Source: a virus
Direction: 5' to 3' (one strand)
DNA length: 31,416 nucleotides
IMG/VR virus record: IMGVR_UViG_3300029309_000199
Span: 1-31,416 of that record
Shown: in pieces, positions 3,163-31,416 of the stretch
Position numbering within the stretch: the first letter of the stretch is position 1
How the letters are laid out: every line of letters begins with the position of its first letter
Translations under genes and position numbers: made by a program
Notes under the pieces: model-generated
Databases searched by the model: none
The model's input: only the letters and a program-made list of their open reading frames with translations
Told to the model about the DNA's origin: nothing

Positions 3163-3178
3163 AAATTAAAGAATTAGA

Positions 3179-3187
3179 TATTTATAA
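3179..3187 (+). promoter_or_regulatory. Late-type motif TATTTATAA upstream of tail tube gene
   Basis: TATTTATAA ends 22 bases before the ATG at 3209. It gives the tube gene its own copy of the motif although the sheath gene is only 46 bases upstream. Promoter role inferred. Confidence 0.55.
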
Positions 3188-3208
3188 CAAGAAATAAATT
3201 AGAACAAA

Positions 3209-3697
3209 ATGCCAATAATAGATCCCAACGAAATATTTTTTACCGCTTTTGAACCAAAGCAGGCCAATAGATTTATAATGACTCTAGATGGTATACCCAG
3301 CTTTATAGTAAAAGGATTAAGTGCAATTTCAGTAACACAAGGTGAAGTAATCCTAAACCATATAAATATCCTAAGAAAAGTTAAAGGAAAAACTATATGG
3401 AATGATGTAACAATGACATTATTTGACCCTATTACACCATCAGGTGCCCAAGCAGTAATGGAATGGATAAGATTACACCATGAATCAGTAACAGGTAGAG
3501 ATGGTTATTCTGATTTCTATAAAAAAGATCCAGTTTTACAAGTTTTAGGTCCTGTAGGTGATGTAGTTTCAGAATGGATATTAAAAGGTGCTTTTGTTAA
3601 AGAATCTACATTTGGAGATTATAACTGGGATACAGAAAACGAAGCAAAACAAATTGAAGTAACATTAGGAGTTGATTATTGTATATTAAATTTCTAA
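3209..3697 (+). CDS. Tail tube protein (T4 gp19-like)
   Basis: The 162-residue length is essentially that of T4 gp19 (163). Tube proteins polymerise as hexameric rings forming the inner channel inside the sheath. Visible family features are the N-terminal segment with FEPKQANRFIMTLDG, the IPSFIVKGLSAISV strand, a loop containing KVKGKTIWNDVTMTLFDPI, and a C-terminal WILKGAFVKESTFGDYNW segment, which together fit the tail-tube beta-barrel. The gene lies immediately after the sheath and is followed by a strong hairpin terminator at 3723-3750. That arrangement is expected for a highly expressed major structural protein. Confidence 0.92.
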   Translation: MPIIDPNEIFFTAFEPKQANRFIMTLDGIPSFIVKGLSAISVTQGEVILNHINILRKVKGKTIWNDVTMTLFDPITPSGAQAVMEWIRLHHESVTGRDGYSDFYKKDPVLQVLGPVGDVVSEWILKGAFVKESTFGDYNWDTENEAKQIEVTLGVDYCILNF

Positions 3698-3722
3698 GAA
3701 AAAATAAATATTTTATTAAAGG

Positions 3723-3750
3723 GAGCTTGGCTATGTCAAGCTCTTTTTTT
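3723..3750 (+). terminator. Rho-independent terminator after tail tube gene
   Basis: A perfect 7-bp stem, GAGCTTG (3723-3729) with CAAGCTC (3737-3743), encloses a 7-base loop and is followed directly by seven T (3744-3750). Upstream A/G bases can extend the stem by pairing with the T run. It separates the sheath/tube genes from the gp26-like gene. It is the only classic intrinsic terminator I see in the window. Confidence 0.88.
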
Positions 3751-3757
3751 ATATTGG

Positions 3758-3766
3758 TATTTATAA
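3758..3766 (+). promoter_or_regulatory. Late-type motif TATTTATAA upstream of gp26-like gene
   Basis: TATTTATAA lies 8 bases after the T run of the terminator and ends 30 bases before the ATG at 3796. A motif placed immediately behind a terminator and before a gene supports promoter function, which would restart transcription here. Confidence 0.6.
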
Positions 3767-3795
3767 CAAAATTAAGTTATTAATAAATAAAAGAT

Positions 3796-4524
3796 ATGTC
3801 AGATTTTAAATTCCCATCGGAAACAATTGAATTACCCTCAAAGGGCTTACTATATCCTGAAGATAATCCTTTATCAAGTGGCAAAATAGAAATAAAGTAT
3901 ATGACTGCTAGAGAAGAAGATATTTTAACTAACCAGGCTTATATAGAAAAAGGTACAGTTTTAGATAAACTAATTGAATCTTTAATAGTAGATAAAAATA
4001 TAAACTATAAAGACTTAATTGTAGGAGATAAAAATGCCGTTCTAGTAACTGCTCGAGTTTTAGGATATGGTAAAAATTATACTTTTACTTTAAAAGGAGA
4101 AGAACATACTGTGGATTTAACAGAGGTAGATAACAGAGAAATAGATGAATCCAAGTATACAAAAGGTAAAAATAGTTTTTCTTTTAAATTACCTAATAGT
4201 GGTAATGAAATTACATATAAGATTTTAAATGGTCATGATGAAACTAAAATAGAACAGGAATTAAAAGGACTTAAAAAAATTAATAAAGATGCTTCTCCTG
4301 AATTATCTACTAGATTAAAATATTTAATCACATCAGTTAATGGCGAAACCGAAAATAAAAAAATTAGAGAATTTGTAGATAATTATTTATTAGCTATGGA
4401 TTCTAGAGCCCTAAGAGAACATATTAGAGACACTCAACCAGATGTAGATTTAATCTTTGATATAGAAGGTGAAGGGGAGGTCACGGTCCCAATAGGGATT
4501 ACGTTTTTTTGGCCTGACGCGTAA
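3796..4524 (+). CDS. Baseplate hub / tail assembly protein (T4 gp26-like)
   Basis: A 242-residue protein whose N-terminus (ETIELPSKGLLYPEDNPL, then IEIKYMTAREEDILTN) is the hallmark of the T4 gp26-like family (T4_baseplate in Pfam); T4 gp26 has 208 residues. It is thought to act in baseplate hub assembly. The position between tail tube and tape measure is also that of the tail assembly chaperones of many long-tailed phages. The frame stops only four residues after a run of seven T (4504-4510), and a second open frame continues for 96 codons past that run, so a longer frameshift product of about 334 residues is predicted. The start is the first in-frame ATG after the late motif. Confidence 0.82.
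   Translation: MSDFKFPSETIELPSKGLLYPEDNPLSSGKIEIKYMTAREEDILTNQAYIEKGTVLDKLIESLIVDKNINYKDLIVGDKNAVLVTARVLGYGKNYTFTLKGEEHTVDLTEVDNREIDESKYTKGKNSFSFKLPNSGNEITYKILNGHDETKIEQELKGLKKINKDASPELSTRLKYLITSVNGETENKKIREFVDNYLLAMDSRALREHIRDTQPDVDLIFDIEGEGEVTVPIGITFFWPDA
4504..4510 (+). promoter_or_regulatory. Candidate programmed ribosomal frameshift site (T7 run)
   Basis: In the gp26-like frame the run is read ACG TTT TTT TGG. A Phe tRNA on the second TTT could re-pair with TTT after slipping +1 (or -2), moving into the frame that reads GGC CTG ACG and stays open to 4799. The zero frame ends 14 bases after the run. The two open frames overlap only at 4496-4524, exactly where the run lies. A one-base homopolymer error in the sequence would look the same. 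Confidence 0.55.
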
Positions 4525-4801
4525 AATAGTACCCCAAGTTAGATCAAATTTATTTAAACAAATTCATGAAATAGTTTTTCATGGTAAAGGAGGATATGAT
4601 TATTATACTATATATCATATGCCTACATGGTTAAGAAAATTTACTTTTAAAGAAATTTCAGATTTTTATAAGGAAAAAAATAAATCTCAAGAAAAGTCTT
4701 CGGGTAAAAATTCTTCCACAATAATGGATTCCTCAGGAAAAATTAACCCAAAAAATATCCCATCTTCTCCGGCTAGTAGGGGTAAAACTTCATATAAATA
4801 A
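4511..4801 (+). CDS. Frameshifted C-terminal extension of the gp26-like protein (gp51-like or chaperone-like)
   Basis: This frame encodes 96 residues after the T7 run and is open upstream only to 4496. It has no ATG, GTG or TTG before 4619, yet the region before that ATG reads like real protein: SNLFKQIHEIVFHGKGGYDY, then a YHMPTWLRKFTFKEISDFY block. Starting at 4619 would cut the protein inside this block and leave only 60 residues, so I prefer translation by frameshift from the gp26-like gene. The C-terminal 40 residues are Ser/Lys-rich and probably disordered. In tailed phages the two-frame gene between tube and tape measure encodes assembly chaperones that coat the tape measure. Equating this part with T4 gp51 is a weak positional guess. 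Confidence 0.6.
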   Translation, partial: GLTRKIVPQVRSNLFKQIHEIVFHGKGGYDYYTIYHMPTWLRKFTFKEISDFYKEKNKSQEKSSGKNSSTIMDSSGKINPKNIPSSPASRGKTSYK

Positions 4802-4833: not shown

Positions 4834-7407
4834 ATGGCTACTGAAGAAGAATTAAATAAACAAAATCAAAAACTTGAGGATCAAATATCTCTTCAACAGG
4901 AATTAAATAGAATTATTCAAGAACGTGTAGGAATTTCCTCCCGAGCTTTATCGGGCCAACAAGAATCATTTAATGTTTTACAAGATCAACTTAAACTAGT
5001 AACATTTGAAAAAGCTGAGAGAATGGTTATACTCCAATCTCTTAGAAAGACAAATAAAATTGCTCTCAAAAATTATTCTATTTTAAGTGATGAACTAGGT
5101 ACTACTAGGGGATTAAAAGAGTTAGCTAAGGATAAAATAATATTAGATAAAGAAATTCTTACATTACAAGATCAGCAAGCTAAATTTGCTGAAATTGCTA
5201 AGGAAGAAGATATAGAAAGATCAAGATTAGGTAAAAATATTTCAGATAGTTTAAAAAACCAAATCAGTGAATTACAAGAAACACAAAAAGAATTAAAAAA
5301 AGTTACTGAACTTTCTGGGAAAATTGCTAACGATTTTGGGGTAAAAACTTTTGGGGCCCTTGAAGATATAACTAGAAAGATCCCAGGACTTAGAAAATTT
5401 GCGGAACCTTTTCAAAAAGCAGCGGAAGCAGCTAGAGCAACGGCAACTGATAACGCTCTTGAAAAAGAAAGAGTAGATTTAAAAAACGAAGCAGCGGAAG
5501 CACAATTTGAATCCGATAAAGCGGCTTTAGAATCTGGAAAAGGTTTAACTAAAGATGTAATTAAAAGATTAGGCTTAGAGAAAAATCACGAAGCTAAACA
5601 AAGAATAGCGGATTTAGAATCACTTAAAACAGGAAAGGGTTTAACTCGGGAAAAAATAAAAGAATTAGGTTTAGAAAAAATACTAATATCTAAAAAGGGA
5701 AAAGCATTAACAGGATCATATGCAGCAAGTGTAGCAGCAGCTAAAAATGCAAAAAACATGTTAGGGGGATTGGGTGCACAAGCTGCGGCATCAGTTAAAG
5801 CACCACTAAAAGCTGTTGCTAAAACCTCCTCAGCTTTTAAAGCAGGAGCTAAAATATTGGGGAAATCTCTTAGTAAAGCATTAGGTCCTATAGGATTACT
5901 TTTAGAGCTTATAATGGCTTTAGTTAGAGGGGATAAAGCAGCAGGAGATTTAGCTAAGTCTATGAATATGACTTACAATGAAGCTCTTGCCACTAGGAGA
6001 GAATTTACAATGATAGCTGAGGAATCAGGAGAAACTTTTGTTACCACTAAGGGCATACAGGAATCAATGATAGCTTTAAATAAATCTTTAGGTACTAATG
6101 TAATGCTAAATAAAGATAATCTTATATTTGCAACTATGATGAGAGAACAAATGGGTTTTTCTCAAGAAGCAATAGTTGGTACTAATAAACTCTCAGAAGC
6201 TTTTGGAAAAACTATAGAACAAATTACGGGAGAGGTAATAGCCCAGGCTGATATAACTGCTACTAACTTAGGTGTTCAATTAGAAGAAAAAGAAATTTTA
6301 GAAGAGGTATCTAAGGCCTCAGCGGCAACAACTTTATCTTTAAAAGGTAGTGGTAGAGAATTAGCAAAAGCAGTAACTACTGCTAAAGCTTTAGGTATGA
6401 CATTACAGCAGATTGAAAAAATATCTGATAGTATATTAAATTTTGAACAATCTATTTCAAGTGAGTTAAAAGCAGAATTATTAATAGGTAGAAATCTTAA
6501 TTTAGAAAGAGCTAGATTAGCAGCTATTAATAATGACATAGAAGGAGTAGCTAGAGAAATTGCATCACAATTTGGTAGTGCTGCTGAGTTTGGGGATTTA
6601 AATAGAATTCAACAAAAAGCTATAGCTGAGGCAGTTGGAATGACAAGAGATGAATTAGCTGAAACTTTATTTACTCAACAAGCTATAGGAAATGCAACTG
6701 GAGAAGAGGCAAAAGAAAGAAAGGCAGTAATAGCGGGAATGTTAAAAACAATGTCTATTGAGGAAGCTCAAAGAAAACTAGAAAAAGAAGGTATTGAAAA
6801 CCTAAAAAAACAAGCTTCAACTCAAGAAAGATTTAATGCAATGTTAGATAAGCTAACAGAAATTGCAGTTCAAATAGGTGAACCTTTATTAGAGATAATA
6901 GGTCCGATAGCAGACTTAGCAGAATTTATCTTACCTAAACTAACTGGAGCTTTACAACCTATAGTAGGTGTTATTAAAGCAATATTTTTAGGTATAAAGG
7001 GTATAGGCCAAGCTATTGGTGCTCTTTTTGGAAATGAAGAAGCAGCAAAAAGTTATGGAGATACTTTTTCTGAAGCAGGAGAGGCCCTTATGTTTGGTTT
7101 TAATAGAGGATTTGATACAGGGATGGGTAAGGATTCATTTGCAGCAGAATTGGGACTAGATTTTGGCACTGTTGCTGGTATAGGAAAAGAATCAACAGTA
7201 TTTGGAGATAATTCAATATTTACCGGAGGAGCTAATGCAAATACTAATAATAATAATCAAAGTTCAGCCCTAGAACTGGATAGACTAAGACAATTAAATG
7301 AACGTAATTATCAACAACAACAAAGAGATATGAGGGAATTAATTAACGCAGTTAGAGAAAACAGACCTGCTGTTGATGTATTTGGGAATGAATTCTATGG
7401 GTCCTAG
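4834..7407 (+). CDS. Tail tape measure protein
   Basis: An 857-residue protein in the position of the tape measure, after tube and gp26-like genes. Residues 1-320 are strongly helical and charged (long coiled coils, Ala/Lys/Glu-rich). They include two tandem copies of a roughly 29-residue unit with core GKGLTxxxIKxLGLEK, near residues 232-252 and 261-283. Hydrophobic helices lie near 345-365 and 690-735, as is usual in tape measures, which may interact with the host membrane on DNA ejection. The middle part contains Gly/Ala-rich helices (GMTLQQIEKISDSILNFEQS). The last 60 residues are Asn/Gln-rich. T4 gp29 has 590 residues; if the usual length rule holds, a tail somewhat longer than T4's is implied. 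Confidence 0.85.
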   Translation: MATEEELNKQNQKLEDQISLQQELNRIIQERVGISSRALSGQQESFNVLQDQLKLVTFEKAERMVILQSLRKTNKIALKNYSILSDELGTTRGLKELAKDKIILDKEILTLQDQQAKFAEIAKEEDIERSRLGKNISDSLKNQISELQETQKELKKVTELSGKIANDFGVKTFGALEDITRKIPGLRKFAEPFQKAAEAARATATDNALEKERVDLKNEAAEAQFESDKAALESGKGLTKDVIKRLGLEKNHEAKQRIADLESLKTGKGLTREKIKELGLEKILISKKGKALTGSYAASVAAAKNAKNMLGGLGAQAAASVKAPLKAVAKTSSAFKAGAKILGKSLSKALGPIGLLLELIMALVRGDKAAGDLAKSMNMTYNEALATRREFTMIAEESGETFVTTKGIQESMIALNKSLGTNVMLNKDNLIFATMMREQMGFSQEAIVGTNKLSEAFGKTIEQITGEVIAQADITATNLGVQLEEKEILEEVSKASAATTLSLKGSGRELAKAVTTAKALGMTLQQIEKISDSILNFEQSISSELKAELLIGRNLNLERARLAAINNDIEGVAREIASQFGSAAEFGDLNRIQQKAIAEAVGMTRDELAETLFTQQAIGNATGEEAKERKAVIAGMLKTMSIEEAQRKLEKEGIENLKKQASTQERFNAMLDKLTEIAVQIGEPLLEIIGPIADLAEFILPKLTGALQPIVGVIKAIFLGIKGIGQAIGALFGNEEAAKSYGDTFSEAGEALMFGFNRGFDTGMGKDSFAAELGLDFGTVAGIGKESTVFGDNSIFTGGANANTNNNNQSSALELDRLRQLNERNYQQQQRDMRELINAVRENRPAVDVFGNEFYGS

Positions 7408-7408
7408 A

Positions 7409-7417
7409 TATTTATAA
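7409..7417 (+). promoter_or_regulatory. Late-type motif TATTTATAA upstream of the Asn-rich protein gene
   Basis: TATTTATAA begins 2 bases after the tape measure stop and ends 22 bases before the ATG at 7440. It may drive the following structural genes to 15432, which have no further copy of the motif in their short gaps. Confidence 0.5.
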
Positions 7418-7439
7418 TAAACAATTAAAATTTAAAATT

Positions 7440-7919
7440 ATGCCACATACACCCGGACTAAGAAATTTACTAGAAGATCCTGGAACAGGTCATGGATCAA
7501 CACTTGCAGCAGAAAAACATGGTGGTCTTCCTGCCAGTGCAAATAACCCATTAATTGGAGGAAAAGGGAATAATGTTTCTACTAATAGTGTTCCTAACAA
7601 CCCTATATCTTCAACATTACACTCTAATGGAGATCCTACTAATAGTTATTCATTAAATGGTAGCAATCAATCTGATGTTAATCAGGGCTATCAACAATAT
7701 AATGATGGAGTTCCAAATAACTTACCTAAACCAGCAAGATTAGATATAAATAATATGGGACAAAATAATACTGTTTTAAATGGTTTACCTGTTGGAGGAG
7801 CTTTTTTACCTACATCAAATTTAACTAGTGCAAATAATGGAGTTTCACCTATGAATAATTCATTTGTAAATGGAACTTACTTTGCAAGTGCACCACCAGA
7901 AGGACTAGGAAATTTTTAA
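7440..7919 (+). CDS. Asn/Gly/Ser/Pro-rich low-complexity protein, probable minor structural protein
   Basis: A 159-residue protein with no recognisable domain. The composition is dominated by Asn, Gly, Ser and Pro, almost without Cys, aromatic clusters or long hydrophobic runs, so it is likely extended or disordered. The N-terminus MPHTPGLRNLLEDPGTGHGS is the most structured-looking part and may be a docking segment. It has its own late motif and ends 7 bases before the large baseplate gene, so co-expression with baseplate genes is expected. A linker or scaffold role is a guess. Confidence 0.65.
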   Translation: MPHTPGLRNLLEDPGTGHGSTLAAEKHGGLPASANNPLIGGKGNNVSTNSVPNNPISSTLHSNGDPTNSYSLNGSNQSDVNQGYQQYNDGVPNNLPKPARLDINNMGQNNTVLNGLPVGGAFLPTSNLTSANNGVSPMNNSFVNGTYFASAPPEGLGNF

Positions 7920-7926
7920 AATATAA

Positions 7927-10284
7927 ATGCCATTAATACAATTACAAACTAACCTTAAATCTCTTACATTTGGGAGGGATAGGCCAGGAGGGGGAAGTAG
8001 TAATCAACCTTATATCACAGTAGACATTCCTCAAAACTTTGAGGATTTTCCAGAAGGTTTTGAAATTGCATTCCAAGGAGGCAATATTACTATTCCCGGG
8101 GGGTTAGGTAATATTAATATCCCTGGAGGAACAGTTAATATTCCCGGAGGACCAGATACTGATTTTTTAGTAAGAAATGGTTTAAATGTTGCTACTGATG
8201 TAACTAAAGATTTAGTAAGACTAGGTAAATATTTTGCCGGACCTTTTCCTCAAGGAGGAAGTCCTAGCGGTCTTTTATTTACAGCAAAACAAAATTTACT
8301 ATCAAGAATATCAACTAAAACTCAATTTAGTGGGGTTTTAAATGAAGGAGTATACACACCTTTATCCAGTTTAACTCAGGCGGGTATTAATGCATTTGGT
8401 TTACATGTTAGAAAACAGGGTTTAATTCCTTTTATAGAGCCTAAAACATATATAAACGAACTTAAAAATAGACTTGAATTCAGTAATACTTTAAACTTTT
8501 CAAATTTTAAAGATATTAATAGATTAGTTAGATTAACTGGGATTAAAATAGATAATTCCTCAACTTGGGAAAGAAAAGATAGAAGTAGAAACCAAATATC
8601 AGAGGACTCTAATGAAATTTTAGCTTATGGTGGGGGACCAAATTCAATAATAGGAATAGGTAAAACAAGAATAAAATTTGCAACTGATAGATTTGAAAAT
8701 CCCTTACAAACTGGCAGAAATAATTGGAAATTAAATACTAATAATGCTTTAGAGGGAATGCCTACTGATTTCTTTAGCTTTAGAACAGGTGAAAATGTCT
8801 ATAATTACACAGTACCGGGATATTATGGTTTAGGGGGGGTTAGTTCTTTTTTACCTGATAAAACTTTAGGAGTACCAACATTTATAAATAAAAATTCTAA
8901 AGAAAATGGTAAAGTTTTTGAAGTAGGAGGTCCTGTAGAAAAACTTTATAATCCCTCGGTTTATAAAACAAATGATATTGAAAGTAATGATTTTCTTTCT
9001 TTCGATGTTATAGGTTTAAGAATACCACGAAATGATTTAAAAACATATCAAGTAGGAAGTAAACTAAATTTTACTACTAACCAATTTAAACCAATTTTAC
9101 GTGGAGGAGCTGGGGCTAAATATCTTAATGCTTTAGAAGCATTAGGAAATTCTAATAATGTAATTTTAAATAAGTTCTTAAGTGTAACTTTAGGGGGAGG
9201 TTTAACTTTTGAACCTAATTTTGAAACCTCAGTATACGTATCATCTCCAACTGGATCCCTAAAAAATTCAACAAGAATATTTGATAATAATACTTTTACT
9301 TTAAATACTCAACAACTTCAAGATAAGGCTATATTATCCCTTAGTAATGGAGAATTCCCAGATTTTAGAAAAACTCTTATAGATGATAACAATATAAAAG
9401 AATCTTCAACTTTAAGTATTTCTCCTAGTTATAAAAATGCTAGAAATAGAGCAATAGACGGTCCTACAGATTCTAGAATTAATTATGCTTCACCTGGTCA
9501 AAAAGGTAATATTATTAGTTATACTAAGGGAAAAATAAATACTTTAGGTAAAATAAATATTACAGACAGATTAAATGCTTTACCTCTATATAAATCCAAA
9601 AATGTAGCAGCTACTCAAGAGGGAGATGCAGGGGGATTTAAAAATGATTTAGTTAAATTTAGAATAGCTGCTATAGATACAAATAATCCTACTAAAAAAA
9701 CATATATGCATTTTAGGGCATATATAGATTCATTTTCTGATCAATATAATGCAAATTGGAACCAGCAAAAATATATGGGTAGGGGAGAACTATTTTACAA
9801 ATACGATAATTTTCAAAGAGATATAAATTTATCATTTACAGTTGCTGCCCAATCAAAACCAGAAATAATGGTTATGTATAGAAAATTAAATTACCTTGCC
9901 TCCACACTAGCTCCTGATTATACTCCAGCTGGATATATGGCAGGAAATTTAGTACAATTAACAATGGGTGGGTGGTGTTATGAACTACCTGGATTTATAC
10001 GATCATTAACATTAGATGTACCTGAAGAATCACCTTGGGAAATAGGTATAGATGATGAAGGATTATTTGATAGTACAGTTAAAGAAATGCCTCATATTTG
10101 TAAAGTAACAGGATTAACATTCACACCAATCCATACATTCAGACCTTCTATTATGAAATTAACTAAATCGATGTCTAAACCAGATGATAATTTAGCAGAT
10201 AATAATGAATATGGAAATCAAAGATATTTAGCATTAAAAGCTACTAATAATAATTATGATAGTAAAGTAAATTGGTATATATAA
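7927..10284 (+). CDS. Large baseplate / tail-tube-like protein (gp48/gp54 region)
   Basis: A 785-residue protein. The C-terminal 200 residues look like a tube or baseplate domain: YMHFRAYIDSFSDQYNANW, a GRGELFYKYDNFQRDINLSF strand pair, and KPEIMVMYRKLNYLASTL. These resemble the tube-initiator/cap proteins that sit between hub and tube (T4 gp48/gp54), though I cannot assign one. Residues 51-75 hold three short repeats with core NIxIPGG, suggesting a small beta-solenoid or turn-rich stalk. The gene lies between tape measure and the gp53-like gene, fitting baseplate assembly. It starts 7 bases after the preceding stop. Confidence 0.6.
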   Translation: MPLIQLQTNLKSLTFGRDRPGGGSSNQPYITVDIPQNFEDFPEGFEIAFQGGNITIPGGLGNINIPGGTVNIPGGPDTDFLVRNGLNVATDVTKDLVRLGKYFAGPFPQGGSPSGLLFTAKQNLLSRISTKTQFSGVLNEGVYTPLSSLTQAGINAFGLHVRKQGLIPFIEPKTYINELKNRLEFSNTLNFSNFKDINRLVRLTGIKIDNSSTWERKDRSRNQISEDSNEILAYGGGPNSIIGIGKTRIKFATDRFENPLQTGRNNWKLNTNNALEGMPTDFFSFRTGENVYNYTVPGYYGLGGVSSFLPDKTLGVPTFINKNSKENGKVFEVGGPVEKLYNPSVYKTNDIESNDFLSFDVIGLRIPRNDLKTYQVGSKLNFTTNQFKPILRGGAGAKYLNALEALGNSNNVILNKFLSVTLGGGLTFEPNFETSVYVSSPTGSLKNSTRIFDNNTFTLNTQQLQDKAILSLSNGEFPDFRKTLIDDNNIKESSTLSISPSYKNARNRAIDGPTDSRINYASPGQKGNIISYTKGKINTLGKINITDRLNALPLYKSKNVAATQEGDAGGFKNDLVKFRIAAIDTNNPTKKTYMHFRAYIDSFSDQYNANWNQQKYMGRGELFYKYDNFQRDINLSFTVAAQSKPEIMVMYRKLNYLASTLAPDYTPAGYMAGNLVQLTMGGWCYELPGFIRSLTLDVPEESPWEIGIDDEGLFDSTVKEMPHICKVTGLTFTPIHTFRPSIMKLTKSMSKPDDNLADNNEYGNQRYLALKATNNNYDSKVNWYI

Positions 10285-21535: not shown

Positions 21536-23398
21536 ATGGCAAATTTAAATATGTCCCAGGAGATTCTATCTAAAATTGTAGTGTATAACAAATATGCAAA
21601 ATATGATAGGGATAAGGGAAGAAGAGAAACATGGACGGAAATAGTAGATAGAAATAAAACTATGCATTTATCAAAATTTCCAAATTTAAAAGAAGAAATA
21701 GAAGAAGTATATAAATTTGTATACGATAAAAAAGTTTTACCTTCAATGAGAAGTTTACAATTTGCAGGTAAGCCTATTGAAATAAATAACTCTCGAATAT
21801 TTAATTGTTCTTATTTACCTGTAGATGATTGGAGATCATTTAGTGAAGTAATGTTTTTACTACTTTCTGGATGTGGGGTAGGTTATTCTGTACAAAATCA
21901 CCACATAGAAAAACTTCCTGAAATAAAGGTACCAACTAAAACTAGAAGATTTTTAGTAGGGGATTCTATAGAAGGATGGGCTGATGCAGTAAAAGTTCTA
22001 ATGAAATCTTATTTTGGTATATCTAATTCAAGACCTAAATTTGATTTTAGAGACATTAGACCTAAAGGAGCAGAACTAATTACAGTAGGAGGTAAAGCAC
22101 CAGGTCCAGAACCATTAAAAGAATGCTTATTCCAAATACAAAAAGTTTTAGATAGAAAAAAAGATGGAGAACAGTTAAAACCAATAGAAGCACATGATAT
22201 TATTTGTCATATAGCTGATGCTGTACTATCTGGTGGTATTAGAAGAGCAGCACTAATTTCATTATTTGATTTACATGATGAAGAGATGTTAACTTCAAAA
22301 TATGGTTTTTGGTGGGAGAAAAATCCTCAAAGAGGTAGAGCTAATAATTCTGCTGTAGTAATTAGATCTAAAGTAAGAAAAAAAGATTTCTTTCAATTAT
22401 GGGATAAAATAGTAGCCAGTAATTCAGGTGAACCTGGTGTTTATTTTTCAAATGATAAAGATTGGGGAACTAATCCATGCTGTGAAATAGCCTTAAGACC
22501 TTACCAATTTTGTAATTTAACAGAAATTAATGTTTCAGACATTGAAACACAAGAAGAATTAAATGCAAGAGTAAAAGCAGGAGCGTTTTTAGGTACATTA
22601 CAAGCTAGCTATACTGATTTTCATTATTTAAGAGATATTTGGAGAAGAACAACTGAAAGGGATGCTTTACTAGGAGTAGGAATGACAGGAATAGGATCAG
22701 GTAATATTTTAAAATTTAATTTAAAAGAAGCAGCTCAAGAAGCTAAAACGGCTAATGCCGAAATAGCAAAAATTATAGGTATTAATAAAGCAGCTAGAGT
22801 AACTACAGTTAAACCATCAGGAACTAGTTCATTAGTATTAGGAACATCATCGGGTATTCATGCTTGGCATAATGATTATTACATTAGAAGAATGAGATTA
22901 GGTAAAAATGAAGCTTTATATGAATACTTGGCAAGTAATAATCCTAAACTAATAGAAGATGATTTCTTTAAACCTACTTTACAAGGTGTAGTTTCTTTAC
23001 CTCAAAAAGCACCTGAAGGAGCTATATTAAGAACTGAATCTGCTTTGGAACTACTTGAAAGAACTAAAAAATTCAATGTAGAATGGGTAAAAGAGGGTCA
23101 TAGAAAAGGAGATAACACTAATAATGTTTCAGCTACAATATCAGTTAAAGAAGAAGAATGGGAAAATGTGGGTAAATGGATGTGGGAAAATAGAAGAACT
23201 TTTAATGGTTTAGCTGTTTTACCTTATGATAATGGATCTTATACCCAAGCCCCATTTGAGGATATAGATGAAGAAATGTATCTTAAAATGGAAAAATATT
23301 TAAAAAACATTGATTTAACATTAGTTAAAGAAACTTCAGATGAAACTGATTTAAATAATCAAGTAGCATGTGCTGGAGGAGCTTGTGAAATAGTTTAA
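21536..23398 (+). CDS. nrdJ: Class II (adenosylcobalamin-dependent) ribonucleotide reductase
   Basis: A 620-residue monomeric reductase making deoxynucleotides for replication. The radical-site motif is TNPCCEI (C315, E317). The reducing pair is C91 (FNCSYLPVDDW) and C326 (FCNLTEIN). The C-terminal shuttle pair is C612/C617 in ACAGGAC. The conserved KPSGTSSLVLGTSSGIH loop is near 425. The GGIRRAAL stretch and absence of an ATP-cone resemble the compact monomeric type (Lactobacillus enzyme 739 residues), so this is a shortened form. Substrate level (di- or triphosphate) cannot be told. Needing B12 means the host must make or import cobalamin. It starts 14 bases after the helicase. Confidence 0.9.
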   Translation: MANLNMSQEILSKIVVYNKYAKYDRDKGRRETWTEIVDRNKTMHLSKFPNLKEEIEEVYKFVYDKKVLPSMRSLQFAGKPIEINNSRIFNCSYLPVDDWRSFSEVMFLLLSGCGVGYSVQNHHIEKLPEIKVPTKTRRFLVGDSIEGWADAVKVLMKSYFGISNSRPKFDFRDIRPKGAELITVGGKAPGPEPLKECLFQIQKVLDRKKDGEQLKPIEAHDIICHIADAVLSGGIRRAALISLFDLHDEEMLTSKYGFWWEKNPQRGRANNSAVVIRSKVRKKDFFQLWDKIVASNSGEPGVYFSNDKDWGTNPCCEIALRPYQFCNLTEINVSDIETQEELNARVKAGAFLGTLQASYTDFHYLRDIWRRTTERDALLGVGMTGIGSGNILKFNLKEAAQEAKTANAEIAKIIGINKAARVTTVKPSGTSSLVLGTSSGIHAWHNDYYIRRMRLGKNEALYEYLASNNPKLIEDDFFKPTLQGVVSLPQKAPEGAILRTESALELLERTKKFNVEWVKEGHRKGDNTNNVSATISVKEEEWENVGKWMWENRRTFNGLAVLPYDNGSYTQAPFEDIDEEMYLKMEKYLKNIDLTLVKETSDETDLNNQVACAGGACEIV

Positions 23399-24936: not shown

Positions 24937-26025
24937 ATGATTAAAAAAATAACAGATAGGATATTCCCTGCTTTAATTGCTTTATCTGCACTTTCCGTAT
25001 CTGCTTCGGCAGCATTTTACTCAATTAGTGGATTAAGTAAGTTATTTGCAGGAGCAGCATTTGCAGTTATAGTAATGGCAGCTTCATTAGAAGTAGCTAA
25101 ATTAGTAATAGCATCTTTACTTTACCAATACAGAAAAACATTACCATTTTTACTTAAAGCTTATTTATCTATTGCTTGTGTTGTATTAATATTAATTACT
25201 TCAATGGGTATATATGGGTTTTTATCTGCTGCTTACCAGGATACAGCAAATAAAGAAGGTAATGTTGAAACTCGCATTGTATTAATAGAAACTAAAAGAG
25301 ATAATGTTAAAGAACAATTGGAAGTTTATACTGAAGAAAAAACATCTATAAATGAAGCAGTAGCTGAACTTAGAAAAGGTTTATCTAATAATAAAATACA
25401 GTGGAGAGATAAAGAAACTAACCAAATTATTACTTCAACTTCTAGTAGAACTAGAAAAGCACTAGAAAAACAATTAGATCAAGCCATAATTAGACAAACA
25501 GAAATAAATGCCAAAGTGGATGTTTTAAATGAAAAAATATTTGAATATGAAACTGAAATAGTAGAAACTAGAATAGGAGATGGTTCTACAAGTGAATTAG
25601 GCCCACTTAAATATCTTTCAGGTTTAACAGGTTTACCAATGGATAGAATAATAAACTATCTTTTATTAACAATAATATTTGTATTTGATCCTCTAGCAAT
25701 AGCATTAGTAATAGCAGCTAATTTTGCATTTGCTGGATTAAGAAAACCAACCAGAGAAAATTTATATGGTGAAACAGTAGAATGTTCTGTTCCTGAAGGC
25801 AAAGAATTTAATACACCTTATGATATAGATGATTTAATAGAATCAGAACCTGAAGAAGAAGTTAATGATGATTCCCAAACTATAAATGAAAAAGAAGAAC
25901 AAATCAAAAAATTAGAAGAAGAAGCAGCTAAAATGGAAAATAGACCACTTTTTGAGAATGCTTATAATAAAGTAAAAAATCAAATTAAAAAATTAAGGGA
26001 TGAAGATAATACGATTACTTACTAA
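24937..26025 (+). CDS. Four-helix membrane protein with coiled coils, unknown
   Basis: A 362-residue protein. Predicted membrane helices lie at about residues 10-31, 36-63 and 72-98, then a charged coiled-coil region to about 210 (KRDNVKEQLEVYTEEKTSIN, later KALEKQLDQAIIRQTEINAK), a fourth helix about 238-265 (INYLLLTIIFVFDPLAIALV), and an acidic, charged tail. It is not an obvious spanin, which would have one helix or a lipobox. It starts 9 bases after the endolysin and ends before the next early promoter, so it belongs to the lysis block. A role in envelope remodelling, lysis control or superinfection exclusion is possible. I recognise no named family. Confidence 0.72.
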   Translation: MIKKITDRIFPALIALSALSVSASAAFYSISGLSKLFAGAAFAVIVMAASLEVAKLVIASLLYQYRKTLPFLLKAYLSIACVVLILITSMGIYGFLSAAYQDTANKEGNVETRIVLIETKRDNVKEQLEVYTEEKTSINEAVAELRKGLSNNKIQWRDKETNQIITSTSSRTRKALEKQLDQAIIRQTEINAKVDVLNEKIFEYETEIVETRIGDGSTSELGPLKYLSGLTGLPMDRIINYLLLTIIFVFDPLAIALVIAANFAFAGLRKPTRENLYGETVECSVPEGKEFNTPYDIDDLIESEPEEEVNDDSQTINEKEEQIKKLEEEAAKMENRPLFENAYNKVKNQIKKLRDEDNTITY

Positions 26026-26031
26026 AAGTAT

Positions 26032-26060
26032 TTGGCTTCCTCAATAAAGGTTCGTATATT
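26032..26060 (+). promoter_or_regulatory. Early-type promoter of the 7-deazaguanine operon
   Basis: TTGGCT (26032-26037), 17 bases, TATATT (26055-26060) with GGTTCG directly before it; in Bacteroidota notation TTTG (26031-26034), 20 bases, TATATTCA. The ATG at 26066 lies only 5 bases after TATATT, so transcription would begin at or next to the start codon and the message may be leaderless. Confidence 0.68.
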
Positions 26061-26065
26061 CAAGT

Positions 26066-26578
26066 ATGGTTAAACATTATATTTACGATGTAGATAAAGA
26101 TACAATTTTAGAGAAAATATCCCAACTACAACCCCTTAATTACAATCAATTTAGATGGTGGAGAAGATTCGATACTCCAAATAAACCATTACATAAAAAT
26201 TCTGATTTACTCAGAAAAATTAAAAATGGTGATTATGAATTTTCACATTATTATTGGCAAGCTAGATATGCTGAAATAGAAATAAACGAATTACATCATG
26301 AAACATACCCTGATGCTGTTCTATTTAATGAAAAAAATGCTATGAACGGTGCTAGAAGAAAACGTCTATGGGATGATTTTGAAAAAGATGAGAAAGAACG
26401 TATGGATAATTTTACAAAAGATCTTTACCATACATTTAAAATGTCTCGAGAACAAATAAAAAAAGAAATGGAGGAATTTGGAGGTACGCTAGAGGATTTT
26501 TATCATTACTGTGATAAAGAATTTGGAATAAGACAAGAAAAATTACAAACACGAGGAAGACCAAGAAAAGTTATATGA
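26066..26578 (+). CDS. Unknown protein with C-terminal AT-hook, first gene of deazaguanine operon
   Basis: A 170-residue, charged, aromatic-rich protein without a known domain. Visible blocks are NYNQFRWWRRFDTPNKP (about 25-41), a helical segment SHYYWQARYAEIEINELHHE (about 60-79), an acidic/basic helix KRLWDDFEKDEKERMDNFTK, and the C-terminus RGRPRKVI with the AT-hook core RGRP (163-166). It has its own promoter and overlaps the next gene, the transglycosylase-like gene, by 4 bases (ATGA). Placement at the head of the DNA-modification operon suggests a DNA-binding partner of the transglycosylase, a regulator or a target selector; all are inference. Confidence 0.75.
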   Translation: MVKHYIYDVDKDTILEKISQLQPLNYNQFRWWRRFDTPNKPLHKNSDLLRKIKNGDYEFSHYYWQARYAEIEINELHHETYPDAVLFNEKNAMNGARRKRLWDDFEKDEKERMDNFTKDLYHTFKMSREQIKKEMEEFGGTLEDFYHYCDKEFGIRQEKLQTRGRPRKVI

Positions 26579-27366
26579 AAGTATCACATGAAGCACCCAT
26601 CCCATATATGAGACAAGTTAGAGGGATGATTGATTATGATTATTGTTTACCACACTTATTAGATGAAAGTGCAGAATATAAATTATATTTTCAAGAATCT
26701 AAAGAAATGGGACGTTATATTATTATGGATAACTCCTTACATGAATTAGGAGAGCCATATGATAAAGAACGTTTAGCTCATTGGTTATATTATTTTGAAC
26801 CAGATGAATTTATAGTACCGGATTATTGGCAAGATAAAACAGCTACACTAGTATCAGCTAAAGAATGGATTAATAAAACATATCCTGACAATACTACACC
26901 AGTAGCTGTAGTACAAGGAAATAATGCATCAGAAGCTAGAGAATGTTATAGAATATTAAAATACCAGGGATATGAAAAAATAGCTTTTAGTTATGGTGCA
27001 GATTGGTATTATGATGAAGGTAAATCATCAATACCTAACTTAGAAAATGTAGTAGTAACTAAGGCTCATGGTAGATACAATTTTATAAAAGAATTATTTA
27101 ATGATAATACAATTAAAAAATCAGATAATATACATTTATTAGGGTGTAATGTACCACAAGAATTTAGTTGGTACAAAAATATGCCTTTTATTAAAACAAT
27201 AGATACATCAAACCCAGTTATACATGGTTTAGCAGGAATCAAATATAATGATTGGGGGTTAGATGAAAAAATATCTACTAAGGTAGATAAATTTGAAGGA
27301 AAAGCTGAACATTGGGAAACAGCAATTTATAATATACAAAAATTTAAAACATTTATACCAGTATGA
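26575..27366 (+). CDS. TGT-like deazaguanine DNA transglycosylase (DpdA-like)
   Basis: A 263-residue protein with the motif order of the tRNA-guanine transglycosylase superfamily: YIIMDNSLHELGEPY (D52, base-binding region), FIVPDYWQD, PVAVVQGNN (the VQG motif, 113-115), NIHLLGC (HLLG, 187-190) and FIKTIDTSNPVIHG (D210, place of the nucleophilic Asp). The cysteine zinc site of bacterial TGT is absent, and it is shorter than bacterial TGT (about 375). DpdA-type members exchange guanine in DNA for a 7-deazaguanine. The neighbours QueC, QueD and QueE make the base precursor, and genes overlap by 4 bases on both sides, so I infer a phage DNA-modification enzyme. A tRNA target is not excluded. Confidence 0.7.
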   Translation: MKVSHEAPIPYMRQVRGMIDYDYCLPHLLDESAEYKLYFQESKEMGRYIIMDNSLHELGEPYDKERLAHWLYYFEPDEFIVPDYWQDKTATLVSAKEWINKTYPDNTTPVAVVQGNNASEARECYRILKYQGYEKIAFSYGADWYYDEGKSSIPNLENVVVTKAHGRYNFIKELFNDNTIKKSDNIHLLGCNVPQEFSWYKNMPFIKTIDTSNPVIHGLAGIKYNDWGLDEKISTKVDKFEGKAEHWETAIYNIQKFKTFIPV

Positions 27367-28235
27367 AACAAGCAGTATTAAGTTTAAGTGGTGGGATGGA
27401 TAGCAGTACACTATTACTTCACCTATTAGCACATGACTATAAAGTAACAGCTCTTAGTTTTGATTATGGACAAAAACATAGAGTTGAATTAGAAAGGGCA
27501 CAACAATTAGTAGATTATTTAAATAGTAAAGCAGATGAAACTTTAGCTAAAAATGATTTAGGAGAAGTTATTAAACACCATTTTAAGCCTATTACATATC
27601 AAACAATTAAATTAGATGGTTTAACATCACTACTAAATTCAGCTTTAGTATCAGGAGGAGATGAAGTACCAGAAGGTCATTATGAAGAAGATAATATGAA
27701 AGCTACAGTAGTACCTAATAGAAATAAAATATTTTCTTCAATTACACAAGCAGTAGCATTATCAATAGCAAATAAAACAGAATCACCTGTTAAAATAGCA
27801 ATGGGTATTCACGCTGGTGATCATGCAATTTATCCTGATTGTAGACAAGAATTTAGAGATGCAGATTATAAAGCATTTACTGAAGGTAACTGGGAAGCAT
27901 CAAGGGTATCATATTATACACCTTATTTAGAGGGAGATAAATATGATATTTTAAAAGATGGAGAATCATGTTGTGGAGCTTTAGGAATTGATTTTAATGA
28001 AGTTTATAAAAGAACAAATACATCATACAAACCAACAGCTGAAGGATTATCAGATTACAAATCAGCATCATCAGTAGAAAGAATAGAAGCATTTTTAAAA
28101 TTAGGTAGAAAGGATCCCGTTGTGTATGTTGATGGATGGGATGTAGCAAAATCTCATGTTGAAAAATTATTAGCAGAGCATGCAAATAACCCTAATATGA
28201 ATGATACAATTGATATAGTAAATAATATGCAATGA
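27363..28235 (+). CDS. queC: 7-cyano-7-deazaguanine synthase-like protein (QueC), zinc site altered
   Basis: A 290-residue QueC-family protein (bacterial QueC about 220-230). QueC converts 7-carboxy-7-deazaguanine to preQ0 with ATP and ammonia. The PP-loop SGGMDSS is at 9-15; VVPNRNKIF (116-124) and GIHAGDHAIYPDCRQEF (149-164) are family signatures; VERIEAF (238-244) and DPVVY (251-255) match its end. The usual zinc cysteines (SCY, then CxxCxxC before ER) read TSY (220-222) and DYKSASS (231-237), so all four are missing. An insertion around 55-110 adds length. It is coupled by ATGA overlaps to the transglycosylase-like gene before it and the small membrane gene after it. Confidence 0.85.
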   Translation: MKQAVLSLSGGMDSSTLLLHLLAHDYKVTALSFDYGQKHRVELERAQQLVDYLNSKADETLAKNDLGEVIKHHFKPITYQTIKLDGLTSLLNSALVSGGDEVPEGHYEEDNMKATVVPNRNKIFSSITQAVALSIANKTESPVKIAMGIHAGDHAIYPDCRQEFRDADYKAFTEGNWEASRVSYYTPYLEGDKYDILKDGESCCGALGIDFNEVYKRTNTSYKPTAEGLSDYKSASSVERIEAFLKLGRKDPVVYVDGWDVAKSHVEKLLAEHANNPNMNDTIDIVNNMQ

Positions 28236-28387
28236 AATATCCAGACGCAAAATTACACCAAATAACAAGTTTTATAAAATCAGGAATACGGATTATAGGG
28301 TATTGTTTTATACCTTACAATTTAATGATAGCAGCTATCATGTTAGTATTAAGTGAAATAGTAGGAATAATAGAAGAATTAGTATAA
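28232..28387 (+). CDS. 51-residue membrane peptide between queC and queD
   Basis: A short frame opened by an ATG overlapping the queC stop (ATGA) and closed by a TAA whose last A is the first base of the queD ATG. Exact coupling on both sides shows that it is a real gene. Residues 1-19 are basic/polar (MKYPDAKLHQITSFIKSG), and 20-47 form one hydrophobic helix or hairpin (IRIIGYCFIPYN, LMIAAIMLVLSEIVGII), ending EELV. No function is recognised; it could be a small inner-membrane accessory factor or an unrelated passenger. Confidence 0.75.
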   Translation: MKYPDAKLHQITSFIKSGIRIIGYCFIPYNLMIAAIMLVLSEIVGIIEELV

Positions 28388-28851
28388 TGGGAAAACATCA
28401 ATCAAGTAAAGTTTTTGACGGGTTTAGTACAGTGTTTCGTCAATGGAAAGCAGAAGATACACACTGTAGATTTTTACATGGATACGGAATTTCATTTAAA
28501 GTATATTTTGAAGGTGAATTAGACCATAGAAATTGGGTTTGGGATTTTGGAGGTATGAAAAGAGCTAAAACTAAAATAGATGGAATGTCTCCTAAAGCAT
28601 GGATGGATTACATGTTTGACCATACATTGATTGCAGCAAAAGATGATCCAGCCGTAGATGTTTTGGAAGAAATGAATGAAAGAGGCATCATACAATTAAG
28701 ATGGGTTGAAGCAACTGGAGCAGAAAAATTTGCTGAATATATTTATAATAAGCTAAATAATTTTGTACATGAAGAAACCGAGGGTAGAGTAAGAGTTACT
28801 AAAGTTAAATTTATGGAGCATGGTAAAAATGCAGCTTATTATACAGAATGA
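28387..28851 (+). CDS. queD: 6-carboxytetrahydropterin synthase-like protein (QueD)
   Basis: A 154-residue protein of the QueD/PTPS family, which makes 6-carboxy-5,6,7,8-tetrahydropterin, the QueE substrate. The core THCRFLHGYGISFKVYFEGE contains the catalytic Cys (C27) and H31; WVWDFGGMKRAK is the DF motif; DHTLI (D78, H79) and VKFMEHG (E144) match catalytic positions. Two of the three zinc histidines of bacterial QueD appear replaced: the FxAAH position reads FSTVF (F17) and HGH reads HGY (Y33). The ATG shares a base with the preceding TAA. Activity as QueD is likely but the metal site is unusual. Confidence 0.82.
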   Translation: MGKHQSSKVFDGFSTVFRQWKAEDTHCRFLHGYGISFKVYFEGELDHRNWVWDFGGMKRAKTKIDGMSPKAWMDYMFDHTLIAAKDDPAVDVLEEMNERGIIQLRWVEATGAEKFAEYIYNKLNNFVHEETEGRVRVTKVKFMEHGKNAAYYTE

Positions 28852-28895
28852 TTAGTAAAACAGTGAACGAAAAACCACTTTAAAAAATTTACAAC

Positions 28896-29669
28896 ATGTT
28901 AAAAAGAATAAAGGATTACAATAGAGTACTCCCTGTACTAGAATTGTATAGGTGTGTACAATCAGAAGGGTCAAGATTTGGAAGACCTACAATAGCAGTA
29001 AGAACAACAGGATGCACGCATAGATGCTACTTTGGAGAAGGTGGATGGTGCGATTCTTGGTATACAAGTATACACCCAGAAAGGGGCACATTTACTTTTA
29101 ATGACATTATTAAAATATATGATGATAACCCTCATGTAAAAGAAATGATGTTAACGGGAGGATCACCAACAATGCATCCTGCTTTAGTAAATGAATTAAC
29201 TCATTTTGCAAATGAAAGAGATATATTAATAACAATTGAAACTGAAGGATCTCATTTTTTAGAAACGGATCATCCTTTAGATTTAATATCTTTATCACCT
29301 AAATTTTCTAATTCTGTACCTGTAGTAGGAGCTGAAACACCTAATGGTGCCATAGTAGATGAAAGAATGATTAAGGTACATAATCGTTTAAGATTAAATA
29401 GAGATGCTATTAGAAAAACAATAAACTATCATAAAGATTACCATTTTAAACCAGTATGGGATGGTACAGATAAAAATTTAGAAGAGATAGAAGCATTTAG
29501 AGTTGAAATGGACATTCCAAAAAATAAAACGTTTATAATGCCTGCGGGAGATACTAGAGAAACATTAGTTGAAATGTACCCTAAAGTATTTGAATTATGT
29601 GCTGAAAAGGGATATAATATGACAGGTAGAGATCATATCATTGCTTTCAATACAGAACGAGGAGTATAA
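28896..29669 (+). CDS. queE: 7-carboxy-7-deazaguanine synthase-like radical SAM enzyme (QueE)
   Basis: A 257-residue radical-SAM protein. QueE rearranges carboxytetrahydropterin into 7-carboxy-7-deazaguanine. Support: LYRCVQSEGSRFGRPTIAVR (QueE substrate-strand motif with QSEG), cluster cysteines C40, C44 and C52 in TGCTHRCYFGEGGWCDSWY, LTGGSPTMHP (GGEP-type SAM motif), IETEGS and LSPKF. The cysteine spacing is CX3CX7C instead of the common CX3CX2C. It is separated from queD by a 44-base gap without a clear promoter, so it probably shares the operon transcript. No GTP cyclohydrolase gene is in the window, so the first pathway step comes from elsewhere in the phage or the host. Confidence 0.87.
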   Translation: MLKRIKDYNRVLPVLELYRCVQSEGSRFGRPTIAVRTTGCTHRCYFGEGGWCDSWYTSIHPERGTFTFNDIIKIYDDNPHVKEMMLTGGSPTMHPALVNELTHFANERDILITIETEGSHFLETDHPLDLISLSPKFSNSVPVVGAETPNGAIVDERMIKVHNRLRLNRDAIRKTINYHKDYHFKPVWDGTDKNLEEIEAFRVEMDIPKNKTFIMPAGDTRETLVEMYPKVFELCAEKGYNMTGRDHIIAFNTERGV

Positions 29670-29683: not shown

Positions 29684-29704
29684 TATGTTATATTTATTAA
29701 CATA
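29684..29704 (+). promoter_or_regulatory. Variant late motif inside an inverted repeat before LamG gene
   Basis: TATTTATTA (29691-29699) is one base off the late motif and lies 4 bases before the ATG at 29704. It sits between the arms of a perfect 7-bp inverted repeat, TATGTTA (29684-29690) and TAACATA (29698-29704), whose right arm reaches the start codon. A promoter or start-site control role is possible; the AT-richness makes chance symmetry plausible. Confidence 0.4.
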
Positions 29705-30411
29705 TGAGTATAAAAAGAGGTGAAATAACAACTAAGATTATAAAAAATGGGCTAGTATTCAATATGGATGCGGCTAATAGAGCAAGTACTATACCTAGTA
29801 CGAGTACTACTAAAACCTTTAATACTATAGATACTTCTATATCTGGAGCATTTTCATCAAATGCCCAATGGGAAGGCCCAATTACTGCAAGTTTTACTTT
29901 TGATGGAGCAGATGATTTAATTACTTGTTCTCCTTCAAATATTCCAACAGGAGCAGTAACAGTCAATTGTTGGTTAAAAACCACAGAAACAACTTATGAT
30001 ATTGTATTTACAACAGGATATCAAAGTTCTGGGGTAGCAGGTTCAATAGAATTACTAATAAGTAGTGGTAAGGCAAGATTTAGAAGAGGAGATAATTCAA
30101 GTAATGAAGTTACTTTAAATAGTAGTAATACTTTTAATGATGGTAATTGGCATAATATAACTTTAACAGATACACATTTATCCAATGGTATGAGAGTTTA
30201 TATAGATGGGAGTGATAATAGTAGTTCTACTTCAATAGGTTCTACAAGTTTTACCCCAGCTAATGGAACATTTTTATATATAGCAGGTCAAAATTCATTT
30301 CATGGGGATTTTAAAGGAAATCTTGCTTGCATGCAAGTATATAACCGCGCCTTATCAGCAGAAGAAGTACTATACAACTACAATGGTTTAAAATCAAGAT
30401 TCGGATTATAA
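29704..30411 (+). CDS. LamG/concanavalin-like fold protein, array copy 1
   Basis: A 235-residue protein. Residues 1-45 (with IIKNGLVFNMDAANRAS) match the next gene closely; the middle varies; a FTFDGADDLITC strand, a WLKTTE strand and a C-terminal block with YNRALSAEEVLYNYNGLK give the Laminin_G_3/concanavalin-like fold. Such jelly-rolls usually bind sugars. There is no signal peptide, so a virion adhesin or decoration protein made late in infection is more likely than a secreted lectin. The stop TAA shares a base with the ATG of the next LamG gene. Confidence 0.82.
   Translation: MSIKRGEITTKIIKNGLVFNMDAANRASTIPSTSTTKTFNTIDTSISGAFSSNAQWEGPITASFTFDGADDLITCSPSNIPTGAVTVNCWLKTTETTYDIVFTTGYQSSGVAGSIELLISSGKARFRRGDNSSNEVTLNSSNTFNDGNWHNITLTDTHLSNGMRVYIDGSDNSSSTSIGSTSFTPANGTFLYIAGQNSFHGDFKGNLACMQVYNRALSAEEVLYNYNGLKSRFGL
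29737..29771 (+). repeat. 35-base 5' repeat of LamG genes, copy 1
   Basis: These 35 bases are identical to 30444-30478 and encode the start of the common N-terminal block (KNGLVFNMDA). Exact identity at DNA level, including synonymous positions, contrasts with the divergent cores of the two genes. Confidence 0.85.
30334..30411 (+). repeat. 78-base 3' repeat of LamG genes, middle copy
   Basis: The last 78 bases of this gene correspond position by position to 585-662 and 31053-31130, sharing the string AACCGCGCCTTA and the same stop. This copy is the most diverged of the three. Confidence 0.75.
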
Positions 30412-31130
30412 TGGGAGTACAAGGAGGAAGCATAACAACAGATATTATAAAAAATGGGCTAGTATTCAATATGGATGCTGCAAATAGGGCAAGCACTATA
30501 CCTAGTACTAGTACTGATAAAACATTTAATACTGTAGATACTAGCGTTTCTGGATCTTTTATTAATGATACATTTTATGATTCCAGTACTATTTCTCCTA
30601 GTTTTGATTTCGATGGTACTGATGATTATATTCAAACAAATTTTTTACAAGATGCAACTAATAATTTTAGTGTTTTTAGTTGGATAAATGTTGATTCGCC
30701 TTCAAATACAAAATATCAGTTTTTAGGTACAAGAGAAGAGTCTACAGGTGCAAGTACTTCAAAAGGTTTTGTTTTTCAGTTAAATGGCTCTAGAGAAGTA
30801 CAGGCAAGAATATTTACTACAACTTCAAATATAACACAAGTAAATGCTGGAGTAGTTACAAATGGTATTTGGGCTAATGTTGCTTTTACTTATGTAGCAA
30901 GTATAAAAACTTTAAAAATATTTCGTAATGGAATTGAAGTTGGTTCTGCAACGGGAACTGCTGCAGGTGTAACAAGTCCTGATAGTATGAGTATTGGTAG
31001 AGCTGCTACCGGTGGACAATATGGTTATTTTGATGGCAATATAGGTCCAATCCACATCTACAACCGCGCCTTACCATCAAACGAAGTCCTACACAACTAC
31101 AACGCATTAAAAGGCAGATTTGGTTTATAA
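30411..31130 (+). CDS. LamG/concanavalin-like fold protein, array copy 2
   Basis: A 239-residue paralogue of the preceding protein. It has the same N-terminal block (IIKNGLVFNMDAANRAS), a FDFDGTDDYIQTNF strand, a VFSWINVDSP strand, a KIFRNGIEVGSATG strand and the end block HIYNRALPSNEVLHNYNALK. Its last 78 bases are nearly the same as those of the gene at the left window edge (71 of 78), closer than to its direct neighbour. That points to exchange of end modules. It is translationally coupled to the gene before it by a TAATG junction. Confidence 0.82.
   Translation: MGVQGGSITTDIIKNGLVFNMDAANRASTIPSTSTDKTFNTVDTSVSGSFINDTFYDSSTISPSFDFDGTDDYIQTNFLQDATNNFSVFSWINVDSPSNTKYQFLGTREESTGASTSKGFVFQLNGSREVQARIFTTTSNITQVNAGVVTNGIWANVAFTYVASIKTLKIFRNGIEVGSATGTAAGVTSPDSMSIGRAATGGQYGYFDGNIGPIHIYNRALPSNEVLHNYNALKGRFGL
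30444..30478 (+). repeat. 35-base 5' repeat of LamG genes, copy 2
   Basis: Identical to 29737-29771. The similarity continues beyond with scattered differences for about 70 more bases. Confidence 0.85.
31053..31130 (+). repeat. 78-base 3' repeat of LamG genes, right copy
   Basis: Matches 585-662 at 71 of 78 positions by direct comparison, and 30334-30411 more weakly. It includes an island of higher G+C (CAACCGCGCC) in an AT-rich background. Confidence 0.85.
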
Positions 31131-31132
31131 CA

Positions 31133-31141
31133 TATTTATAA
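31133..31141 (+). promoter_or_regulatory. Late-type motif TATTTATAA before third LamG gene
   Basis: A perfect TATTTATAA begins 2 bases after the previous stop and ends 4 bases before the ATG at 31146. If it is a promoter, the message starts at or near the start codon. Confidence 0.45.
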
Positions 31142-31145
31142 TAAG

Positions 31146-31416
31146 ATGGGATTAGCACACGGAGCAAATATAGTAAATGATGGATTAGTATTTTTAGTAG
31201 ATCCTATAAACCCTAGATCATGGACTGGACCTGATTCTAGTACTGTAAACAGTTTAAAAGGAGGTATAACAGGTTCTATAAATAATGATACATCTGGAAG
31301 TTATGGTTTAAATAATAGTTTTGACTTTGATGGAACTGATGATATTATCCATACAAATACTAACCCAAGAACATTAATAGGAAATAATAGTAGTTACAGT
31401 GTTTCTATTTGGGTTT
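31146..31416 (+). CDS. LamG/concanavalin-like fold protein, array copy 3, cut by window end
   Basis: The first 90 codons of a gene running off the right edge. The N-terminus MGLAHGANIVNDGLVFLVDP differs from the first two copies but keeps the NGLVF-type block. SFDFDGTDDIIHTN and YSVSIWV are the same beta-sandwich strands seen in the others. It follows the preceding gene by 15 bases and has its own late motif. It extends the array to at least three consecutive members here. Confidence 0.75.
   Translation, partial: MGLAHGANIVNDGLVFLVDPINPRSWTGPDSSTVNSLKGGITGSINNDTSGSYGLNNSFDFDGTDDIIHTNTNPRTLIGNNSSYSVSIWV

Follow-up and report, generated by a model that had tools for sequence, protein, structure and literature searches.

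With a probability of about 0.87, the six-gene operon described here is a DpdA3-type system for replacing guanine in DNA by a 7-deazaguanine, carried by a tailed phage that probably infects Bacteroidota. It lies in the sequence of an aquatic phage, a virus record of 31,416 bases that was analysed over its whole length (the window). Genes for tail sheath, tail tube, baseplate, single-strand DNA binding protein, UvsX-like recombinase, DnaB helicase and ribonucleotide reductase are found in the window, and the sheath, tube, baseplate and replication/recombination genes therefore mark it as part of a contractile-tailed phage. The host is probably a member of the Bacteroidota, judging from two clues. 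A Shine-Dalgarno-like site was found in 1 of 30 genes (1.35 expected), and few such sites are usual in Bacteroidota; the nearest named relatives infect Flavobacteriia. DpdA-type enzymes swap G for 7-deazaguanine after replication and thereby block restriction (PMC6884629). The initial annotation had read the operon as a pathway for the synthesis and insertion of a 7-deazaguanine, and this reading is upheld by family matches for QueC, QueD and QueE and by a TGT-fold protein related to the DpdA of Flavobacterium phage immuto.

The six genes run head to tail on the + strand from 26066 to 29669 (Table 1). Re-reading of the coordinates gave the gene order and spacing that had been claimed: overlaps of 4 bases between the genes for the 170-aa and 263-aa proteins, between the latter and queC, and between queC and the gene for the 51-aa peptide, an overlap of 1 base between this gene and queD, and a gap of 44 bases between queD and queE. 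The proposed promoter at 26032 (TTGGCT-17-TATATT) was not distinguishable from chance, since 48 promoter-like sites were found and 48.0 were expected from shuffled sequence. Relatives share the operon block with protein identities of about 60-92%, except for one QueD slot at 40%, and its recurrence in the same order is therefore far beyond chance.

Table 1. Positions in the window of the operon genes and of the replaced QueC zinc-ligand codons
Feature	Position	Strand	Basis
170-aa helical protein with C-terminal AT-hook (RGRPRK)	26066..26578	+	RGRPxK end and NYNxFxWW motif, alignment A5
DpdA3-type DNA guanine transglycosylase, 263 aa	26575..27366	+	phrog_19058 E=4e-46; homology; fold match
QueC-type preQ0 synthase, SDSS class, 290 aa	27363..28235	+	Pfam QueC E=5e-37
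Codons of QueC S221, D231, S234, S237	28023..28073	+	replace E. coli zinc C188, C197, C200, C203
51-aa hydrophobic (membrane-type) peptide	28232..28387	+	family seen in DpdA3 loci
QueD, phage-type, 154 aa	28387..28851	+	Pfam PTPS E=2e-14; phrog_2389 E=5e-40; THC..LHGY and DHT motifs
QueE, radical SAM, 257 aa	28896..29669	+	Pfam Radical_SAM E=2e-7; phrog_2076 E=2e-48; CX3CX7C

Several features of the surrounding sequence were also recorded. Upstream of the operon (24937-26025) lies the gene for a 362-aa membrane and coiled-coil protein, the family of which was found in 50 of 108 DpdA3 loci and also in long relatives without modification genes. Repeated related structural proteins of the phrog_8510 type occupy 1-662 and 29704-31416, and two of them directly 3' of the operon (29704-30411 and 30411-31130) are near copies at their starts. 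The ribonucleotide reductase encoded between dnaB and the operon (21536-23398) is of the B12-type class II, with an RNR-II insertion domain. Relatives carry a class I enzyme (large and small chains) at the equivalent place, for example at 1963-4662 of locus L004, which amounts to a swap of reductase class.

The initial annotation had taken the 263-aa product for a TGT/DpdA-like protein, and a structure search agreed. The best PDB fold match of the predicted structure, a model of moderate confidence (mean pLDDT 65, pTM 0.70), was 7ui4, the DNA preQ0 insertase DpdA (E=6.8e-6, probability 1.0), and many tRNA-guanine transglycosylases followed. A translated search of isolate phages found full-length relatives at 37-38% identity in immuto, where the homologue is annotated as a DNA guanine transglycosylase, and in the Campylobacter CP220-group phages, where it is a hypothetical protein. 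This transglycosylase group we take to be DpdA3 (name from Cui 2023), which is said by the same authors to go with complete replacement of G; the window protein was not detected as DpdA1 or DpdA2. Profile similarity was weaker: the NCBIfam DpdA profile matched the window protein at E=0.003 and 4 of 19 family members in all, the best at E=3.5e-5. The PHROG family that matches the protein (Table 1) is of unknown function, and no Pfam family matched. Searched alone against PDB sequences, the protein gave no match; the family profile returned mostly designed TIM barrels, with DpdA 7ui4 at E=0.013. Alignment by hhalign to a three-sequence TGT/DpdA profile was likewise weak (probability 27%). Given this weak profile similarity and the pLDDT of 65, membership in the TGT family leans on the fold search and the intermediate relatives.

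Three aspartates, D52, D83 and D210, were invariant in 19 diverse family members. D52 and D210 sit in TGT-like motifs, the D52 region being placed by hhalign, weakly, near the TGT DSGGF, and their motif positions make them the likely catalytic pair; the catalytic aspartates of TGT we take to be D102 and D280 (Z. mobilis numbering).

Within 7 kb of dpdA, queC was found in 96, queD in 84, queE in 72 and FolE in 40 of 108 nonredundant loci, which have transglycosylases more than 5% different from one another and include many truncated contigs. The linkage of dpdA to queC, queD and queE, together with FolE in 12 of 12 long relatives, argues for DNA replacement, as does the finding that long relatives lacking DpdA3 are also without QueC and the AT-hook protein. 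These data bear on a different use of the genes, in which the phage would supply preQ0 to the host pathway and so boost host tRNA queuosine during infection, leaving phage DNA unmodified. The tRNA pathway uses these same enzymes, QueD, QueE and QueC, and such a role has been proposed for phages that have these genes but no DpdA (PMC6884629). Here, however, the operon itself contains a dedicated TGT-fold gene of the DpdA3 group, which accompanies QueC from contig to contig, the CxCxxC zinc motif of E. coli Tgt was missing from all 159 transglycosylase sequences checked, and relatives of the transglycosylase come from phages whose DNA contains dADG (PMC8306585). We consider a tRNA role very unlikely. 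DpdA3 relatives were also present in contigs binned into metagenome-assembled genomes (L186-L194) of Woesearchaeota, Flavobacteriales, Winogradskyella and Legionellales; these contigs are probably phage, so the binning may be wrong.

The QueC of the operon departs from its family at the zinc site. Two features define the family, SGGxDS and a C(x)8CxxCxxC zinc motif; the zinc site is said to be required by the family, and Y35, R99, Y131 and Y189 are essential in the E. coli enzyme (PMC13329287). The window protein shares SGGxDS, YxQxHxxE, VPxRN, YPDC, K165 and Y189 with canonical QueC (PF06508 cluster 1, PMC13329287) but has S..D..S..S in place of the zinc motif, and because all four zinc cysteines are replaced we file it as a QueC variant and not as canonical. 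The claim of a motif set for each enzyme needs correction for QueC, whose set is incomplete. Among 171 aligned QueCs (163 from the loci and 8 reference rows, with some proteins present twice), 152 are exactly SDSS, 15 are CCCC and 4 are cut short; with near-copies removed there were 94 SDSS against 9 CCCC sequences. The S-D-S-S set is invariant in the 94 distinct phage proteins despite a mean pairwise identity of 70%, and the CCCC/SDSS difference needs one change on the QueC tree (SH-aLRT 96). The SGGxDS ATP loop and Y35, R99, Y131 and Y189 are kept in the window QueC and in nearly all of the 163 sequences. Canonical CCCC proteins were seen in CP220, Seurat-type, Rosebush-type, phiSM, ValKK3 and Youna2 phages, in E. 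coli, and in KurtStettler, which differs in this from the window. No account of an SDSS class turned up in the papers examined, among them the main text of the 2026 QueC family survey, and within that literature the class is likely new.

Loss of all four zinc ligands could mean that the SDSS protein is not a full preQ0 synthase. QueC proceeds through ADG in two ATP-dependent steps (PMC13329287); the variant might stop there or use another acid, so that ADG or another base would be inserted, and dADG is the base found in the DNA of CP220 and CPt10 (PMC8306585). We regard this as unlikely. CP220 arrives at dADG through a QueC of the ordinary CCCC type, all tested catalytic positions are kept, Y189 included, and the SDSS QueC stands alongside QueF in immuto and in loci L112, L116, L124 and L171. 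The substrate of QueF is preQ0, and this coexistence suggests that SDSS proteins probably still make preQ0. A general sparing of zinc in these phages was considered and rejected: the zinc ligands C111, H114 and C182 (E. coli numbering taken from the alignment) are all retained in FolE, and the QueC change is therefore not part of a wider abandonment of zinc.

At the catalytic Cys and zinc histidines of QueD (C..HGH), the window protein reads C..LHGY, a feature conserved in this phage QueD class. It is only 40% identical to the window protein in L004 (9680-10162) and L007 (8173-8655), where the other operon genes are at 60-89%, while the QueD of L005 is of the window type (77% identity); the sequences thus indicate that queD has been replaced in place in some relatives. 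In L005, moreover, queC and queD are separated by an insertion (7255-7928) that encodes a SET-domain protein and a thioredoxin. The cluster motif of QueE, CX3CX7C (GCTHRCYFGEGGWC), was found in 111 of 122 QueE sequences and exceeds the usual CX3CX2C in spacing; the spacing in CP220 QueE is longer still. Members of the 51-aa peptide family were present in 50 of the 108 nonredundant DpdA3 loci and are often longer (72-87 aa).

The initial annotation had noted that FolE and QueF are absent. There is no folE in the 31,416-base window, but this is probably an effect of the contig end. Each of the 12 long relatives carries FolE, and in the closest of them (92,958 bp, with the same operon order and with transglycosylase, QueC and QueE at 86%, 91% and 91% identity) folE lies downstream of dpdA, its start 5.2 kb after the dpdA start. 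The equivalent place for the window phage is at about 31.8 kb, past the end of the window, and folE of this phage is probably located just beyond the contig end. The absence of QueF, on the other hand, is supported by the closest relatives, the window itself being a fragment: no QueF was detected in the window, in relatives of 54 kb and 39 kb, or in the three long relatives nearest to it. The gene was found in 2 of the 12 long relatives (in one of them over the family cut-off) and in immuto. With no QueF seen, preQ0 and ADG are the most likely candidates for the inserted base.

The product of the first operon gene belongs to a family marked by a conserved NYNxFxWW motif and a long helix, and most members end in RGRPxK (49-member alignment A5); Pfam AT_hook was recognised in 9 of the 49. 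Searches of Pfam and PHROG gave the 170-aa protein no identity beyond the AT-hook itself, its confident AlphaFold2 model (pLDDT 88) had no PDB fold match, and a search of isolate phages gave no match. Of 80 loci found in a scan seeded with the family, 67 had the transglycosylase; in 10 of the remaining 13 the sequence stops within 1.3 kb. Conversely, the protein was present in 28 of 35 DpdA3 contigs of at least 50 kb, or in 20 of 27 when the 8 contigs found via the AT-hook family itself are left out to give an unbiased figure.

The AT-hook protein is a conserved companion of DpdA3. It might nevertheless be unrelated to modification and just a neighbour carried in the same phage lineage, a reading we hold to be somewhat improbable. 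The contigs all come from related phages and represent few independent events, 7 of the 35 long DpdA3 contigs have no detectable copy, and none was seen in the CP220 and immuto regions examined. Against this, the gene precedes dpdA in most loci but follows it immediately in G064 and G065, and it lies 13-48 kb from dpdA in G054, G014, G034 and G038; since it is retained when moved, the association is more than frozen gene order. In the long relatives G049 and G052 (108 and 205 kb) it is missing together with DpdA3 and QueC. Loci found via a different neighbour gene had both proteins in 27 cases, DpdA3 only in 6, the AT-hook protein only in 1 and neither in 5 (Fisher p=0.004, a test that ignores phage relatedness and overstates independence because all these phages are related).

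Among the closest known systems, the DpdA3 system of immuto (Flavobacterium phage vB_FspM_immuto, MW353176) shares the transglycosylase (38%), an SDSS QueC (64%), QueD (68%) and a QueE with CX3CX7C (67%). It differs in having folE, queF and an accompanying formyltransferase beside dpdA, in its scattered genes, with queC 15 kb away, and in the lack of an AT-hook protein in the region examined. The CP220 group (Firehammervirus) shares a full-length transglycosylase at 37% and has folE, queE and queC, with QueF not found; its QueC keeps the four zinc cysteines, its genes are scattered and its QueE is only about 25% identical. In Firehammervirus DNA, G is fully replaced by 7-deazaguanine derivatives (PMC10273834). 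The DpdA of Escherichia Seurat-type phages and the DpdA2 of Vibrio phage nt-1 (PMC6884629) have the same chemistry, TGT fold and QueD/QueE/QueC supply, but belong to other transglycosylase subfamilies and give partial replacement of G.

From the families, the TGT fold, the gene linkage, the loss of the QueC zinc ligands and the AT-hook co-occurrence, all computed here, we infer how the system would act in this phage. QueD, QueE and QueC make CPH4, CDG and preQ0 in turn. FolE (GTP cyclohydrolase) would start the pathway, QueD would convert 7,8-dihydroneopterin triphosphate to CPH4, QueE would form CDG, and QueC preQ0. The TGT-fold protein would then act on phage DNA after replication and put the 7-deazaguanine in the place of guanine, probably at most G positions or at all of them, and this would block restriction enzymes. 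The AT-hook protein would probably hold the transglycosylase on DNA or open AT-rich DNA for it. The general system is already known; the SDSS QueC and the conserved AT-hook companion mark this new member of the DpdA3 kind as a variant. A bolder proposal, that these phages form a distinct branch of G replacement in which a QueC that works without its zinc site, an invariant S-D-S-S set holding it together, is combined with a dedicated new-fold AT-hook protein that delivers the small DpdA3 to DNA, essentially every G being exchanged, we consider rather doubtful.

With the SDSS QueC it can be tested directly whether the enzyme needs its zinc site for catalysis or for stability only. As to how a small transglycosylase could modify DNA with no strong preference for sequence, the AT-hook companion is a testable candidate for the factor that is missing. 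Should 7-deazaguanine occur throughout the genome, these phages would be protected against many restriction enzymes and would be misread by some sequencing-based methods. DpdA3-type replacement looks common in aquatic phages, with at least 594 relatives of the transglycosylase in a scan of IMG/VR against 18 full-length close relatives in isolate phage records.
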